A stretch of 7,131 bases of DNA from Streptosporangiaceae bacterium (GTDB lineage: Bacteria > Actinomycetota > Actinomycetes > Streptosporangiales > Streptosporangiaceae), in NCBI GenBank assembly GCA_030043395.1, contig JASHXW010000454.1, forward strand, positions 1 through 7,131, in the 5' to 3' direction. The notes below the pieces were generated by a model that did no database searches, was not told where the DNA came from, and was given only the letters and a program-made list of their open reading frames with translations. Positions 1,947 to 7,131 of this stretch are shown here, piece after piece. The position numbers were made by a program, and so were the translations under genes. Numbering within the stretch: the first letter of the stretch is position 1; each line of letters starts with the position of its first letter.

Positions 1947-3512
1947 ATGCAGAGCTTCGTCCACGTGATCGAGTGGCGCGCGACCGTCCGGCCGGACGTG
2001 ACCGCGCTGGTCGACGATCGCGGCGCGCGCTACAGCTACGCCGAGCTGCGCGCAGCCATCGAGCGTCACGCGGGTGGCTGGGCCGGGCTCGGTGTCAAGC
2101 CGGGTGACGTCGTCGCGATCGTGGCGAAGAACAGCGCCGACTTCCTGGTCCACGCCTTCGCGATCCTGCGAGCCGGGGCGACGCCTGCGTTCGTCAACTG
2201 GCGGCTGTCGCCGCGCGAGCTGACCGAGGTGCTAGCGCTGGTCGAGCCGGTGGCCGTCGCGGCCGATGCCGAGTTCACGGCCCTGGTCGAGTCGGCGGCC
2301 CCTGACCTCGGCAGGCGCGTTCTCATCAGCGGCGGTGCGCAGGACCGTCCAGGCTGGCTGGAGGGGACCAGCCTGACCGGTCCGGTGCCGCCGAGGCCCG
2401 AGCTGCCCAGCGATGGCGTGCTGGCGCTGGTGCACACCAGCGGCACGACGGGCCGGGCCAAGGCGATCCCGCTCCGGCACGGCGCATTGCTGGTCAGCGT
2501 GGCGGGCATGGCGATCGAGGTCGGCGATCAGGTGGCCGGCTCGGCGCACCTGCAGATCCTGCCGCTGTTTCACCTGGGCGGGTTCGGGCAGTGCATGCAG
2601 GCGCTGCTGACCGCGGGAACGGTCTACATTCACGCCCAGTTCAGCCCGCCAGCGGTGATCGACGCGATCGAGCGCGACCGGATCGAGTTCTTCACCGCCG
2701 GCCCGTCGCTGATCGACATGCTGGTGGCGGAGATCCGCCGGCGGTCCGGCCCGGGCGGACCAGGCCCGGACCTGCGCAGCCTCAGGGAGATCGCCTACGG
2801 CACGGCTCCGATCACCCCGACTTCACTGTCGGCCGCGATCGAGGCATTCGGGTGCCGGTTCCGCCAGATCTACGGGAACACCGAGAGCCAGAGCATGATC
2901 AGCTTGCTGGCGCCCGAGGATCACCAGCCCGGTCATCCCAGGCTCGCCAGCGCCGGCCGGGTGTCGTTCGGCTGGGAGGTCAAGGTGGTCGACCCGGCCG
3001 ACGAGGCCAACTCGGCGCTGCCGGCCGGCACGCCAGGCGAGCTGCTCATCAAGGGCGAGTGCCTGTTCTCCGGGTACTGGCGCGACCCGGCGGCGACGGC
3101 CGCGGCCTTCACCAAGGACGGCTGGTACCGGACCGGCGACATCGCCAGGCTGACGCAGGACGGCTACCTGTACATCCTGGACCGGGCCAAGGACATGGTG
3201 ATCAGCGGCGGCGAGAACATCTACCCGGCCGAGGTCGAGGCCGTGCTGGCCCGCCATCCGGCGGTGGCCGAGGTCGCGGTGATCGGCCGCCCGGACCCGA
3301 CCTGGGGCGAGGCCGTGCACGCCGTGATCAGGCCGGCCGACGGCGCGGAAGTGTCCGAGCAGGAGATCATCGCCTGGTGCCGCGAGCGGCTAGCCCACTT
3401 CAAGTGCCCCAAGAGCGTGGAGTTCACCGGCCCGTTGCCGCGCACGACGACGGGAAAGGTGCTCAAGCGCGAGCTGCGCGCACGTCCTGGCCAATCCGAG
3501 GGAGCACCCTGA
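1947..3512 (+). CDS. AMP-forming acyl-CoA synthetase (FadD-like, AMP-binding family)
   Basis: This 521-residue enzyme of the ANL superfamily should activate a carboxylic acid with ATP to an acyl-AMP and transfer it to CoA. All core motifs are present: P-loop TSGTTGRAK at 164-172, YGNTES at 309-314, YRTGD at 394-398, the hinge and A8 region around DRAKDMVISGGENIYP at 412-427, and the catalytic C-terminal lysine K504 in TTGK. Length is normal for the family. ATG 1947 has GAAGAGG eleven nt upstream. An in-frame GTG at 1935 would add four residues and cannot be excluded; the frame is open back to 1590, but that part overlaps the aldolase gene. It is the first gene of a plus-strand pair, its TGA overlapping the next ATG by one base. 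The divergent oxygenase operon suggests the acid comes from, or enters, a ring- or side-chain-degradation pathway. Acyl chain specificity cannot be judged by eye. Confidence 0.93.
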   Translation: MQSFVHVIEWRATVRPDVTALVDDRGARYSYAELRAAIERHAGGWAGLGVKPGDVVAIVAKNSADFLVHAFAILRAGATPAFVNWRLSPRELTEVLALVEPVAVAADAEFTALVESAAPDLGRRVLISGGAQDRPGWLEGTSLTGPVPPRPELPSDGVLALVHTSGTTGRAKAIPLRHGALLVSVAGMAIEVGDQVAGSAHLQILPLFHLGGFGQCMQALLTAGTVYIHAQFSPPAVIDAIERDRIEFFTAGPSLIDMLVAEIRRRSGPGGPGPDLRSLREIAYGTAPITPTSLSAAIEAFGCRFRQIYGNTESQSMISLLAPEDHQPGHPRLASAGRVSFGWEVKVVDPADEANSALPAGTPGELLIKGECLFSGYWRDPAATAAAFTKDGWYRTGDIARLTQDGYLYILDRAKDMVISGGENIYPAEVEAVLARHPAVAEVAVIGRPDPTWGEAVHAVIRPADGAEVSEQEIIAWCRERLAHFKCPKSVEFTGPLPRTTTGKVLKRELRARPGQSEGAP

Positions 3513-4534
3513 TGAGCCGTGTCGGACTGTCCATCGCCTCGCATAGCGGGCTGCGGCCTGCTGCGATCGGCGACCTCGCCGCCGCTGCCGAGCAGGCGGG
3601 CTTCGGCGCGGTGTTCGTGGCCGAGGGCCACGGCGACGCGCTGTCGCTGTGCCTGCCGGTCGCCGCTGCGACGGAACGGGTCACCGTAGGCACGGCCATT
3701 GCCAACGCGGCGCTGCGCCCGCCGGTGCTGGCAGCCAAGACCGCCGCGATGCTCGATCACGCCTCGGACGGCAGGTTCGTGCTTGGCCTGGGCACCGCGA
3801 ACGCGATCATGAACGGCCGCTTCGGCATTGCCCCGTTCGCTCCGCTGCCGATGATCGAGGAGTACGTCGCGGTCATCCGGGCGGTTCTCGCGGGCGACCC
3901 GGCGGGTTTCTCGGGAAAGGTCTTCAGCACCGGCATGGTGCCGCTGGACAGCCCGCCCGTCCGCGCGGACCTGCCCATCTACCTGGCCGCGCTCAGGCCG
4001 CCGATGCTCAGGCTGGCCGGCCGCATCGCCGACGGCGTGGTTCTCAACCTGATGTCGCCCGCGCAGGCGGGCACCGCCGCGGAGATCGTCCGGGCGGCGG
4101 CCGCCGAGGCTGGCCGCGATCCTTCTTCGGTGCAGGTGACGTGCGTCGTGCACTGCTGCCTGACCGACGATCCGGAGGCCGCGGGTGCCGCGGCCCGGTC
4201 GGTAGTGCCGCGCTATGTGCTGCACCCTGCCGTGCCGGAGTTGTTCGGCGAGGGCGACGCGCCGGCCGGCAGCGAGCCGGTGGACCTGTCTGGTGTCCGG
4301 GCGCTCACGCTGGCCGGCGACCGTGCCGGGGCGGCGCAGCAGGTGCCCCAGCACGTGGCCGACGGGTTCGTGGCGAGTGGCGACGCCGCTGCCGTCCAGG
4401 CGAGGGTGGCGCAGTACGTGGCCGCGGGCGTTGACCTGCCGGTCTTGTTCCCGATGCCGGTCGGAACCGACTGGGGTTATGAGCCGGTGATCGCCAGCCT
4501 CGGCCGGGCGGCCCGCCAGCCAGAAGCGAGTTAG
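3512..4534 (+). CDS. Luciferase-like (LLM class) flavin/F420-dependent oxidoreductase
   Basis: This 340-residue TIM-barrel protein belongs to the bacterial-luciferase-like superfamily, which uses reduced FMN or coenzyme F420. Family traits are the N-terminal strand VGLSIAS, the AAAAEQAGFGAVFVAEGHGD segment (23-42, acidic residue after strand 2), RVTVGTAI at 56-63, and the glycine-rich FVLGLGTANA at 89-98 followed by the insertion-loop start. PIYLAALRPPMLRLAGRIADGVVLN (155-179) is the typical later barrel segment. ATG 3512 overlaps the synthetase stop as TGATG, with GAGGGAG seven nt upstream, so translational coupling is likely. The frame is open far upstream (to 2591), but that is a GC-driven shadow of the synthetase. 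In actinomycetes such proteins are mostly F420-dependent, which is inference here. It could act as a dehydrogenase, reductase or monooxygenase on the pathway intermediate. Confidence 0.9.
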   Translation: MSRVGLSIASHSGLRPAAIGDLAAAAEQAGFGAVFVAEGHGDALSLCLPVAAATERVTVGTAIANAALRPPVLAAKTAAMLDHASDGRFVLGLGTANAIMNGRFGIAPFAPLPMIEEYVAVIRAVLAGDPAGFSGKVFSTGMVPLDSPPVRADLPIYLAALRPPMLRLAGRIADGVVLNLMSPAQAGTAAEIVRAAAAEAGRDPSSVQVTCVVHCCLTDDPEAAGAAARSVVPRYVLHPAVPELFGEGDAPAGSEPVDLSGVRALTLAGDRAGAAQQVPQHVADGFVASGDAAAVQARVAQYVAAGVDLPVLFPMPVGTDWGYEPVIASLGRAARQPEAS

Positions 4535-4552: not shown

Positions 4553-5356
4553 TCAGTTCGGCTCGGCTGCCCGGCGGCGGTTATAGAGCCGGATCGCCCA
4601 CAGGTAGCTGACCAGGGCGATGCCGACACTCCAGGCGATGGCGGCAACCGCGTGCGTGCCGATCGGACCGCCGCTGAGCAGGCCGCGGACGGTCTGGGTG
4701 ACCGGGGTGAACGGCTCGTACTCGGCGAACTGGCGCAGCCCGGCTGGCATGCCGGCGGTGGGGACGAACCCGCTGGACAGGAACGGCAGCAGGGTGAGGA
4801 ACATCGGGGTGTTGCTCGCGGTCTCTACGCTCTTGGCGGCCAGGCCAAGGGCTGCGGACAGCCAGATGAGCGCGAACGCGAACAGCGCGAGCACGCCGGC
4901 GGCGGCTAGCCATTCGAGGACGTCGGCATCGGACCGGAAGCCAATGGCCACGGAAACGCCGACGACGAGCACCAGGACGGCGAGTGTCTGCAGCAAGCTG
5001 CCGATGACATGGCCGGTGAGCACGGCGGCCCGGGAGATGGCCATGGTGCGGAACCTGTCGATGATGCCACCCGTCATGTCCGTGGCGACCGAGATCGCGG
5101 TGCCCAGGGCGGCGTACGCCACGGTGATGATCAGGATGCCGGGAACCACATAGGTGATGTAGGCGGCACGGCCGCCGCCGCCGTGCGTGCCAAGGCCAGA
5201 ACCGAGCTGGCTGCCGAAGACGTAGACGAAAAGCAGCAGGAGCACGATCGGCAGGCCCACGAGCATGATCGTCAGCGACGGGTAGCGGAGCTGGTGCTTG
5301 AGGTTGCGGCGCAGCATGGTTGCCGAGTCGCTGACGGTGTAGGCCAGGGAGGTCAT
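4553..5356 (-). CDS. ABC-2 type transporter permease, DrrB-like
   Basis: This 267-residue integral membrane protein is the permease half of an exporter. About six hydrophobic segments can be seen: roughly residues 28-48, 66-90, 117-139, 147-172, 185-200 and 235-256. GGIIDRFRTMAISRAAVL (96-113) is the cytoplasmic loop expected to dock on the ATPase. SGFVPTAGMPAGLRQFAEY (195-213), followed by PFTPVTQTVRGLL, is a pattern typical of DrrB/daunorubicin-resistance permeases. The ATG overlaps the ATPase stop codon as ATGA, and AGAGGAAG lies ten nt upstream within the ATPase gene, so the two are translationally coupled. It presumably forms a homodimer with two ATPase subunits. The exported compound is unknown. 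Confidence 0.93.
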   Translation of the reverse strand: MTSLAYTVSDSATMLRRNLKHQLRYPSLTIMLVGLPIVLLLLFVYVFGSQLGSGLGTHGGGGRAAYITYVVPGILIITVAYAALGTAISVATDMTGGIIDRFRTMAISRAAVLTGHVIGSLLQTLAVLVLVVGVSVAIGFRSDADVLEWLAAAGVLALFAFALIWLSAALGLAAKSVETASNTPMFLTLLPFLSSGFVPTAGMPAGLRQFAEYEPFTPVTQTVRGLLSGGPIGTHAVAAIAWSVGIALVSYLWAIRLYNRRRAAEPN

Positions 5357-6333
5357 GGCTGGAGGACTTCCTCTTCTTGGCGGGCGGCGGGTTCGATGGC
5401 GGCGTGGCCGGTGACGGCGAAGAACATGTCGTCGAGGTCGGGCGTGTGGATCGAGAGGTGCTCGACCGGGATGCGAGCGTCGTCCAGTTCGTCGAGCATT
5501 CGGCGCAGCGAGGCGATGCTTCCGTCGCCAGGGACCTGCAGGGTCAGCTGTTCGTCGTCCGGGCTGGCGTTCGGGATCATGCTGACCGCGGCGCGCAGGG
5601 CGCCTGAGTCTGCGAACCGGAGCTGGATGTGGCCTCCCGGGATGCGGCGCTTCAGCTCGGCGGGGGTGCCATCGGCGACGATCCGCCCGTGATCCAGCAC
5701 CACGACATGGTCAGCGAGCTCGTCGGCTTCGTCGAGGTACTGAGTGGTGAGGAAGATCGTCACGCCCTCGGCGGAGAGCTCGCGGATGATCTGCCACATG
5801 GTGCGGCGGCTCCGCGGATCGAGCCCCGTGGTCGGCTCGTCGAGGAAGATCACGGACGGGCTGCCGACCAGCGTCATCGCCAGGTCCAGCCTGCGCCGCA
5901 TGCCGCCGGAGTAGGTCGAGAGCGGCTTGCGCGCGGCGCCGGCCAGGTCGAACCGCTCGAGCAGCTCGGCGATCCGGCGGCGTCCGGCCTGGCGGCCAAG
6001 GTGGCGAAGGTCGGCCATCAAGCGCAGGTTCTCCTCGCCGGTGAGCAGGTTGTCCACCGCGGAGAACTGGCCAGTGACCCCGATCACCGCGCGCACGGCG
6101 TCCGGCTCGGCGCCGACGTCGTGCCCGCCGACCCGGATGTCGCCGCCGTCCGCCGGGATCAGGGTCGACAGGATGCGAACCATCGTGGTCTTGCCCGCGC
6201 CGTTGGGGCCGAGCAGGGCGAAGATGGTGCCTTCGGCGACCGTGAGGTCGACTGCGTCGAGCACGATGTGCTCGCCGAAGGACTTGCTGACCGCGCGGGC
6301 GCTGATCGCCGGCGTCGCAGGGCTCATCGTCAC
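5353..6333 (-). CDS. ABC transporter ATP-binding protein, DrrA-like (daunorubicin-resistance family)
   Basis: This 326-residue nucleotide-binding subunit powers the adjacent permease. Motifs in order are Walker A GPNGAGKTT (42-50), Q-loop Q89 in VTGQFSAVD, signature YSGGM (141-145), Walker B VIFLDEP (161-167), D-loop GLDPRS, and the switch position in LTTQYLDEAD (195-204). There Q198 replaces the usual H-loop histidine, a known trait of DrrA-type ATPases. A roughly 100-residue C-terminal extension ends in HTPDLDDMFFAVTG, also typical of DrrA. The start is GTG 6333, with GAGGA five nt upstream; ATG 6327 is the alternative (GAGGA 11 nt away) and removes only two residues. It lies 14 nt after the regulator stop and overlaps the permease by four nt, giving a regulator-ATPase-permease operon. 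Substrate specificity is not inferable. Confidence 0.95.
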   Translation of the reverse strand: MTMSPATPAISARAVSKSFGEHIVLDAVDLTVAEGTIFALLGPNGAGKTTMVRILSTLIPADGGDIRVGGHDVGAEPDAVRAVIGVTGQFSAVDNLLTGEENLRLMADLRHLGRQAGRRRIAELLERFDLAGAARKPLSTYSGGMRRRLDLAMTLVGSPSVIFLDEPTTGLDPRSRRTMWQIIRELSAEGVTIFLTTQYLDEADELADHVVVLDHGRIVADGTPAELKRRIPGGHIQLRFADSGALRAAVSMIPNASPDDEQLTLQVPGDGSIASLRRMLDELDDARIPVEHLSIHTPDLDDMFFAVTGHAAIEPAARQEEEVLQP

Positions 6334-6858: not shown

Positions 6859-6887
6859 AGATTACAGGTAGAACTGAGATAACACAA
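6859..6887 (-). promoter_or_regulatory. Promoter of the regulator-exporter operon, predicted leaderless
   Basis: Read on the minus strand, TTGTGT (6887 to 6882) is followed by a 17-bp spacer and TAATCT (6864 to 6859), a good actinobacterial sigma-70-type pair (TTGNNN / TANNNT). Only seven nt (CTGACGC) separate the -10 from ATG 6851, so transcription should start at or within a base or two of the A of ATG. The -35 and the whole spacer lie inside the palindrome, and the -10 begins directly at its edge. Binding there would block RNA polymerase. Confidence 0.65.
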
Positions 6888-6912
6888 ATTTGTGTTATCT
6901 CAGTTCTACCTG
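6865..6912. repeat. Perfect 48-bp palindrome with no spacer, candidate operator or rearrangement junction
   Basis: Two 24-bp arms are exact reverse complements around the 6888/6889 axis, with core AACACAAATTTGTGTT at 6881-6896. The symmetry ends at 6864/6913 (A against G, a mismatch). The element is AT-rich (18 G+C of 48) in a window of much higher GC. It covers the -35 and spacer of the regulator promoter, where a MarR-type dimer or pair of dimers would bind. MarR-family operators are normally imperfect palindromes of about 16-24 bp, so the perfect outer arms are more than a single dimer needs. The mirrored -35 on the plus strand (6890-6895) has no -10 after it (GCGCTC at 6913-6918). Confidence 0.9.
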
Positions 6913-7131
6913 GCGCTCACGAGGACTGCGCTCGCGGTCGTGGACGCCCGGTACCTGGAGCCGTCGATCCCGGCGACGCACACCCCGTCGTTCGCCATCG
7001 AGCCAGGCGCCCGGCTGATCCCGGTCAACGACCTGGTCAGCCTGAACCAGCCGGCCAGCGGGTTCACCATTCTCGGCGGCGGCAAGACCGCGATCGACGC
7101 ATGCCTGTGGCTGCTCGGCGCGGGCGTGCCG
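6892..7131 (+). pseudogene. NAD(P)/FAD-dependent oxidoreductase fragment, 5'-truncated, runs off the right edge
   Basis: The frame is open from just after TAA at 6880-6882 to the window end, 80 codons if counted from GTG 6892. From about residue 17, VVDARYLEPSIPATHTPSF and RLIPVNDLV, then GFTILGGGKTAIDACLWLL (58-76), resemble the middle of flavoprotein monooxygenase-like oxidoreductases. GGGKTA (62-67) is a Rossmann dinucleotide-binding turn. In such proteins this segment normally follows an N-terminal FAD-binding domain (GxGxxG) of well over 100 residues. None is present: the frame starts inside the 48-bp palindrome, and the preceding bases belong to the regulator promoter. No ribosome binding site supports GTG 6892. 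I read it as a beheaded gene or a chimeric junction. A short single-domain protein is possible but less likely. The family call rests on recall of conserved phrases, not a search. Confidence 0.55.

Follow-up and report, generated by a model that had tools for sequence, protein, structure and literature searches.

The usual operator of a MarR-family regulator is roughly 18-22 bp long. The locus described here has several features in common with MarR-family autorepressors: its regulator carries a winged-helix MarR domain and is encoded by the first gene of an exporter operon, and a two-fold symmetric, AT-rich site lies over the predicted -35 box and spacer. It departs from them in the size of the conserved site, which at 30 bp is longer than the usual operator of the family. 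The titles and abstracts covered by a literature search included no relevant paper on the operator sequence, no MarR operator with a perfect palindrome or cruciform and none with a leaderless start. The exporter genes resemble the operons of DrrAB-type ABC exporters in that a DrrA-type ATPase scoring above the TIGR01188 cut-off adjoins an ABC-2 permease, but the permease falls below the cut-off of TIGR01247. A further parallel is mutational. In Escherichia coli it is established that template switching makes quasi-palindromes more perfect, and in lacZ and thyA, as set out in the available text of the source (PMC7202029), an imperfect inverted repeat gains several bases of symmetry at once. A gain of the same kind would account for the palindrome considered below, with the difference that here it is inferred from a comparison of species at an operator, whereas in E. 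coli it was observed as a mutation.

The palindrome lies near the right-hand end of a stretch of 7131 nucleotides (the window, by which we mean the whole of the DNA that was analysed), between a leftward MarR-type gene and an open frame that is read rightwards and continues past the contig end (Table 1). The original prediction described a perfect 48-bp palindrome without a spacer, placed in the promoter region of the MarR-type gene over the -35 box and the spacer, and on both points it agrees with a direct reading of the sequence: the element equals its own reverse complement at 48 of 48 positions, and the symmetry stops exactly at both ends. Viewed from the MarR-type gene, the promoter-proximal arm is the left arm in the window. 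The chance of a perfect 24-bp arm is, by simple arithmetic, about 4^-24 per position. When single-stranded, the palindrome folds with an energy of -23.2 kcal/mol (z of -12.9 versus shuffles). At up to three mismatches, the inner 22 bp occur only once in the window, and no second copy is expected by chance. It had also been argued that palindromes of this length are rarely kept because they are attacked by SbcCD-type nucleases. This argument is weak at 48 bp: as far as the available text of one study goes (PMC3315005), the E. coli chromosome tolerates even an 85-bp interrupted palindrome with SbcCD present, and this palindrome was no target of SbcCD during replication.

Table 1. Features of the palindrome region and of the adjoining genes (positions in the window).
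Feature	Position	Strand	Basis or remark
ABC-2 type permease, DrrB-like	4553..5356	-	PF01061, 77.5 bits (cut-off 26.9)
DrrA-type ABC ATPase	5353..6333	-	TIGR01188, 320.5 bits (cut-off 312.45)
MarR-type regulator, 167 aa	6348..6851	-	PF12802, 31.7 bits (cut-off 27)
Predicted -10 box, TAATCT	6859..6864 (read 6864-6859)	-	Direct reading; just outside the palindrome
Exact 48-bp palindrome, no spacer	6865..6912	.	Reverse-complement identity and single-strand fold
Outer 9 bp, promoter-proximal arm	6865..6873	-	Includes the TG (6865-6866) of the predicted extended -10
Candidate core operator, 30 bp, CTGAGATAACACAAATTTGTGTTATCTCAG	6874..6903	.	Both arms conserved across orthologs
Predicted -35 box, TTGTGT	6882..6887 (read 6887-6882)	-	Direct reading; inside the candidate operator
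Outer 9 bp, distal arm	6904..6912	.	Exact reverse complement of 6865-6873; without conservation in orthologs; likely copied
NAD(P)-binding (flavoprotein-like) gene fragment	6913..7131	+	Open at the contig end; N-terminal part missing; homology from about 6922-6939

The MarR-type gene is followed by the genes for the DrrA-type ATPase and the ABC-2 permease, all on the minus strand. The regulator exceeds a curated cut-off for the MarR winged-helix domain through PF12802, and its score with PF01047 (22.8 bits) is just under the cut-off of 24.6. At an E value of 0.001 it has 3313 homologs, among them the proteins P0002-P0008 with 88-92% identity, and, with regard to the GbsR-like label of the original prediction, it matches no NCBIfam model. 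The best match of the regulator profile among solved structures is PDB entry 4nb5 (named DNA binding protein; E = 1.1e-12, positions 9-130), a distant match that we take to be a mycobacterial MarR-type protein. TIGR01188 places the ATPase in the DrrA type, while the permease reaches only 49.9 bits with the curated DrrB model TIGR01247 (cut-off 223.05) and matches general ABC-2 models. A DrrA homolog is found directly downstream of the regulator in 33 of 65 orthologous loci, three loci having fewer than 600 bases of downstream DNA, and more distant branches carry other genes there instead. In two such loci the region downstream of the regulator contains a frame matching a sodium/hydrogen exchanger model (L031) or the Pfam beta-lactamase model PF00144 (L041). 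Elsewhere in the window, a gene for a class II aldolase family protein (1116-1841; 323.3 bits against a cut-off of 200 for the NCBIfam 3,4-dihydroxyphthalate decarboxylase model) stands beside that for the alpha subunit of a Rieske ring-hydroxylating oxygenase (3-1106). An acyl-CoA ligase-like protein (1947-3512) and a luciferase-like F420-type oxidoreductase (3512-4534) are also encoded, and these four genes may constitute an aromatic degradation cluster.

The conservation of the palindrome was assessed in orthologous promoters. A profile from 18 homologs yielded 39 loci in the genome collection, and further loci were obtained from genome searches with the protein, from searches with operator patterns and from two plasmids; two of the unique loci (L070 and L079) were discovered only by searching for the site itself. 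At each locus tblastn was used to place the gene, and the 150 bp before it were searched for the best 30-bp core match, with a threshold of 20 of 30 positions. Such a core is present upstream of the MarR-type homolog at 88 of 90 loci in the first round (66 unique) and at 103 of 105 loci in the enlarged set (73 unique); because the totals of 90 and 105 include the window and loci that were fetched twice, the unique counts are to be preferred. No operator is found at this threshold in L016 and L059, and L107 and L108 barely reach it with matches that are out of register. L057 was excluded from the statistics, as its projected start is misplaced and the operator lies 4 nt from it. When 78 loci were scanned over their full length on one strand, the second-best core matches scored 14-19. 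At 70 of the 72 unique loci that remain without L057, the core is separated from the projected start codon by 20-25 nt; in the earlier set this applied to 65 of 66. Column statistics from 65 loci show that both arms are conserved up to position 15, with TGT at arm positions 5-7 and AT at positions 9-10 each present at 95-100%.

These data divide the palindrome into two parts. The original prediction took all 48 bp as one element and looked to orthologous promoters for the alternative, a native site with only one half. The inner 30 bp are present in the orthologs with both halves, and to this extent the symmetric element stands; the outer 9 bp of each arm do not, with fewer than four further pairs beyond position 15 at 64 of 72 unique loci. 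The proposal that the promoter of the regulator-exporter operon contains an operator-like element is supported, the conserved core being in register with the predicted -35 and -10 boxes. The conserved 30-bp site is a likely candidate for an autoregulatory operator that overlaps its own predicted promoter.

The predicted promoter of the window reads, on the minus strand, TTGTGT, 17 bp, TAATCT, 7 nt and ATG. No evident ribosome-binding site is present in the 7 nt between the -10 box and the ATG, and the message is therefore predicted to be one that starts without a leader; on this reading the marR-drrA-drrB mRNA should be leaderless. Across 65 loci the favoured pattern on the promoter side is that of an extended -10 element, TG followed by TAnnnT: position 24 is G in 93%, positions 23-24 read TG in 45 loci, and columns 25, 26 and 30 are T in 55%, A in 58% and T in 73%, respectively. 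The phase of this element may shift by one base because the spacing to the start varies. The positions that form the -35 and extended -10 elements are better conserved on the promoter-side arm in these loci; arm position 2 is conserved at 81% on the promoter side versus 47% on the distal side, and position 4 at 92% versus 73%. A divergent promoter for the right-hand gene was considered and rejected: the mirror position reads GCGCTC, with no -10 box, and that gene is a fragment. A hairpin in the RNA was likewise rejected, because transcription is predicted to start only downstream of the palindrome.

The outer 9 bp of each arm behave differently from the core. Runs of paired bases beyond position 15 reach 9 in the window and in L024 (Gordonia hankookensis), 7 in L031 (Streptomyces torulosus), 6 in L093 (from the same genus as L024) and in L015 (a MAG), and 4 in each of L007, L028 and L060. 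The five loci with runs of 6-9 therefore comprise the window, two Gordonia, one Streptomyces and one MAG, and two of them, L024 and L031, are named isolates. The sequence of these extensions differs from locus to locus, yet each is self-complementary. In L031, short tandem repeats of a cctctcctgaccgg-like unit are found directly before the distal arm, upstream of the operator. Runs of at least 4 occur at 8 of 72 unique loci against a null mean of 1.20 and runs of at least 6 at 5 of 72 against 0.15, and neither count was reached in any of 20,000 partner shuffles, a control that ignores the relatedness of the loci. When the window is removed, 7 loci with at least 4 and 4 loci with at least 6 remain, and again no shuffle among 20,000 reaches either number. 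When the window and three Gordonia loci are removed, the count for at least 4 is reached in 3 and that for at least 6 in 51 of 20,000 shuffles, so that the excess of runs of at least 6 is weaker but still unusual. The longest run alone was reached in 804 of 20,000 shuffles and is less striking, as would be expected if shuffling exchanges arms between closely related loci. With the axis slid by 1-3 bases there is no run of at least 6, and runs of at least 4 appear only at +3, in 2 of 72 loci (in none of the 65 analysed earlier) versus 8 at the true axis. None of the seven unique loci that were added last, whose proteins are 49-56% identical to that of the window, shows an outer run.

The two sides of the outer region are also unequal. 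On the distal side almost no sequence is shared beyond arm position 15 (65 loci), and the mirror of the TG is found there in only 5 of 65 loci, the window and L024 among them. The comparison with the 45 loci that have TG on the promoter side suggests that the promoter-side arm was the template for the distal outer arm. On the regulator tree, in which 31 of 69 inner branches are open, the eight loci with runs of at least 4 need eight changes and the five with runs of at least 6 need five. Given these scattered positions, the outer extensions look as though they were acquired separately, with the exception of L024 and L093, which are sisters on the tree and for which one gain and a loss in L085 is possible. 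Between L024 and L085 (97% in the aligned gene region) the differences cluster within the distal arm, but the spacer has diverged as a whole, and as the trace of a copying event the comparison of the Gordonia trio is only suggestive.

A second discontinuity is found at the right-hand edge of the palindrome. In the seven best matches of the gene fragment there, similarity to NAD(P)-binding proteins sets in between its residues 11 and 17. The counterparts in L001 and L002 have roughly 130-160 residues ahead of that start of homology, and relative to them the fragment is short of roughly 120-150 N-terminal codons. Direct reading places a stop codon at 6880-6882, within the left arm, and this blocks leftward extension of the fragment's frame. 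Seven fragments in the protein database match it at 51-85% identity; six of the seven have a DARYLE-like motif, as does the fragment in the window, and the five with sequence to the left of this motif have an arginine-rich or related stretch where the window reads TRTALA. The gene is present in the upstream flanks (237-3,500 bases) of none of 65 orthologous loci, and a match to the fragment at an E value of 1e-10 was found in 4 of 100 relatives of the genome that contains L007. Since the fragment is truncated and absent beside the orthologs, the join at the palindrome edge would be either a rearrangement or a chimera of assembly or amplification.

We consider it quite likely that the element combines the operator core of a MarR-type autorepressor with an outer extension that arose by template switching. 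A dimer of the regulator would bind the two-fold symmetric 30-bp core and cover the -35 box and the spacer. The covered promoter would be the one that drives the leaderless marR-drrA-drrB mRNA, resulting in autorepression, and a ligand, probably a substrate of the exporter, would release the repressor. Replication would stall at the hairpin-forming core and briefly use the promoter-side arm as a template, which would add nine mirror bases distally. The step from 30 to 48 bp would thus fall outside the recognition sequence, and quasi-palindrome template switching is its most likely origin. The pre-existing inverted repeat that such switching requires is provided by the conserved core, with its capacity to fold into a hairpin. 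Template switching has also been proposed, in the available text of PMC8794818, to create hairpins in one step. The exceptional length of the palindrome is probably a local, mutational extension of an operator-like site of a known kind.

The original prediction offered two functional readings of the full length, two stacked dimers and a cruciform switch. The more general form of these, in which selection acts on the outer arms and the full 48 bp either take up a second dimer or form a promoter-tuning cruciform, seems unlikely to us. The recurrence of self-complementary extensions with different sequences in several lineages is what selection for pairing would give, and the folded strand is stable. 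Against this, outer runs are shorter than 4 at most unique loci, the distal outer bases carry almost no information and the element, which precedes the predicted start of transcription, would give no mRNA hairpin. The short runs and the upstream position leave the cruciform switch unsupported. The stacked dimers find no support either, and were dropped as the leading idea because arm positions 16-24 are hardly conserved on the distal side. That the outer sequences differ argues against protein contacts, and together with the small number of long runs and their scattered origins it makes template switching a better fit than additional contacts. A chance match beside a conserved operator is very improbable and already disfavoured. 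The promoter-side flank does have shared column preferences (T, A and T at 16, 18 and 19, and TG at 23-24), about one run of at least 4 is expected among 72 loci and the +3 slide of the axis gives two, and the loci added last show no excess; nevertheless, the five runs of at least 6 far exceed their null mean and were matched in no shuffle.

A more serious possibility, although one that we lean against, is an artefact that comprises the distal outer arm together with its junction to the gene fragment, produced as a foldback or chimeric molecule or by misjoining of a metagenome contig at a hairpin-forming operator, the native element being the 30-bp core only. The palindrome ends 219 bp from the end of the contig and directly abuts the truncated fragment, the frame of which is closed by the in-frame stop in the left arm; the fragment's gene is missing from the analysed flanks of all 65 orthologs, and amplification is known to yield inverted chimeras. 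However, a natural rearrangement would look alike, and because the isolates L024 and L031 have similar outer extensions in their genomes, the outer arm in itself does not call for an artefact. The template-switch origin of the extension, from an operator core that is conserved in its own right, is the reading that we retain.

In seven genomes selected for carrying an ortholog, a search at up to two mismatches found the site once in five, twice in G655, where the second site is near the start of a contig, and three times in G652. The three copies in G652, a Solirubrobacterales genome, correspond to L014, L025 and L079, each of which by its coordinates precedes its own MarR-type gene. At up to one mismatch, 4 of 394 genomes of the class contain the site. 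One of these four sites, L071, is operator-like with one mismatch to the inner pattern and has no MarR-type homolog within the 3,022 bases around it, and was for this reason excluded from the counts. With so few occurrences per genome and in the class, the operator looks mostly dedicated rather than a regulon-wide box. An origin from a phage or virus was rejected: viral contigs include no relative, and the exact inner site is absent from them too.

For this regulator-exporter family, the analysis provides a precise candidate operator, a promoter and a probable leaderless start across several actinobacterial groups. A broader idea, which we put forward tentatively and with some doubt, is that hairpin-prone repressor operators are self-perfecting: repeated outward copying of the promoter-side arm would generate ever longer palindromes in separate lineages without selection, and the same sites would act as break points that truncate neighbouring genes. 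The sister operators, with a fixed core and freely changing flanks, offer a natural set for the question of whether regulatory palindromes in wild bacteria are shaped by template switching. They also indicate that the length of a palindrome alone is no measure of the footprint of a protein.
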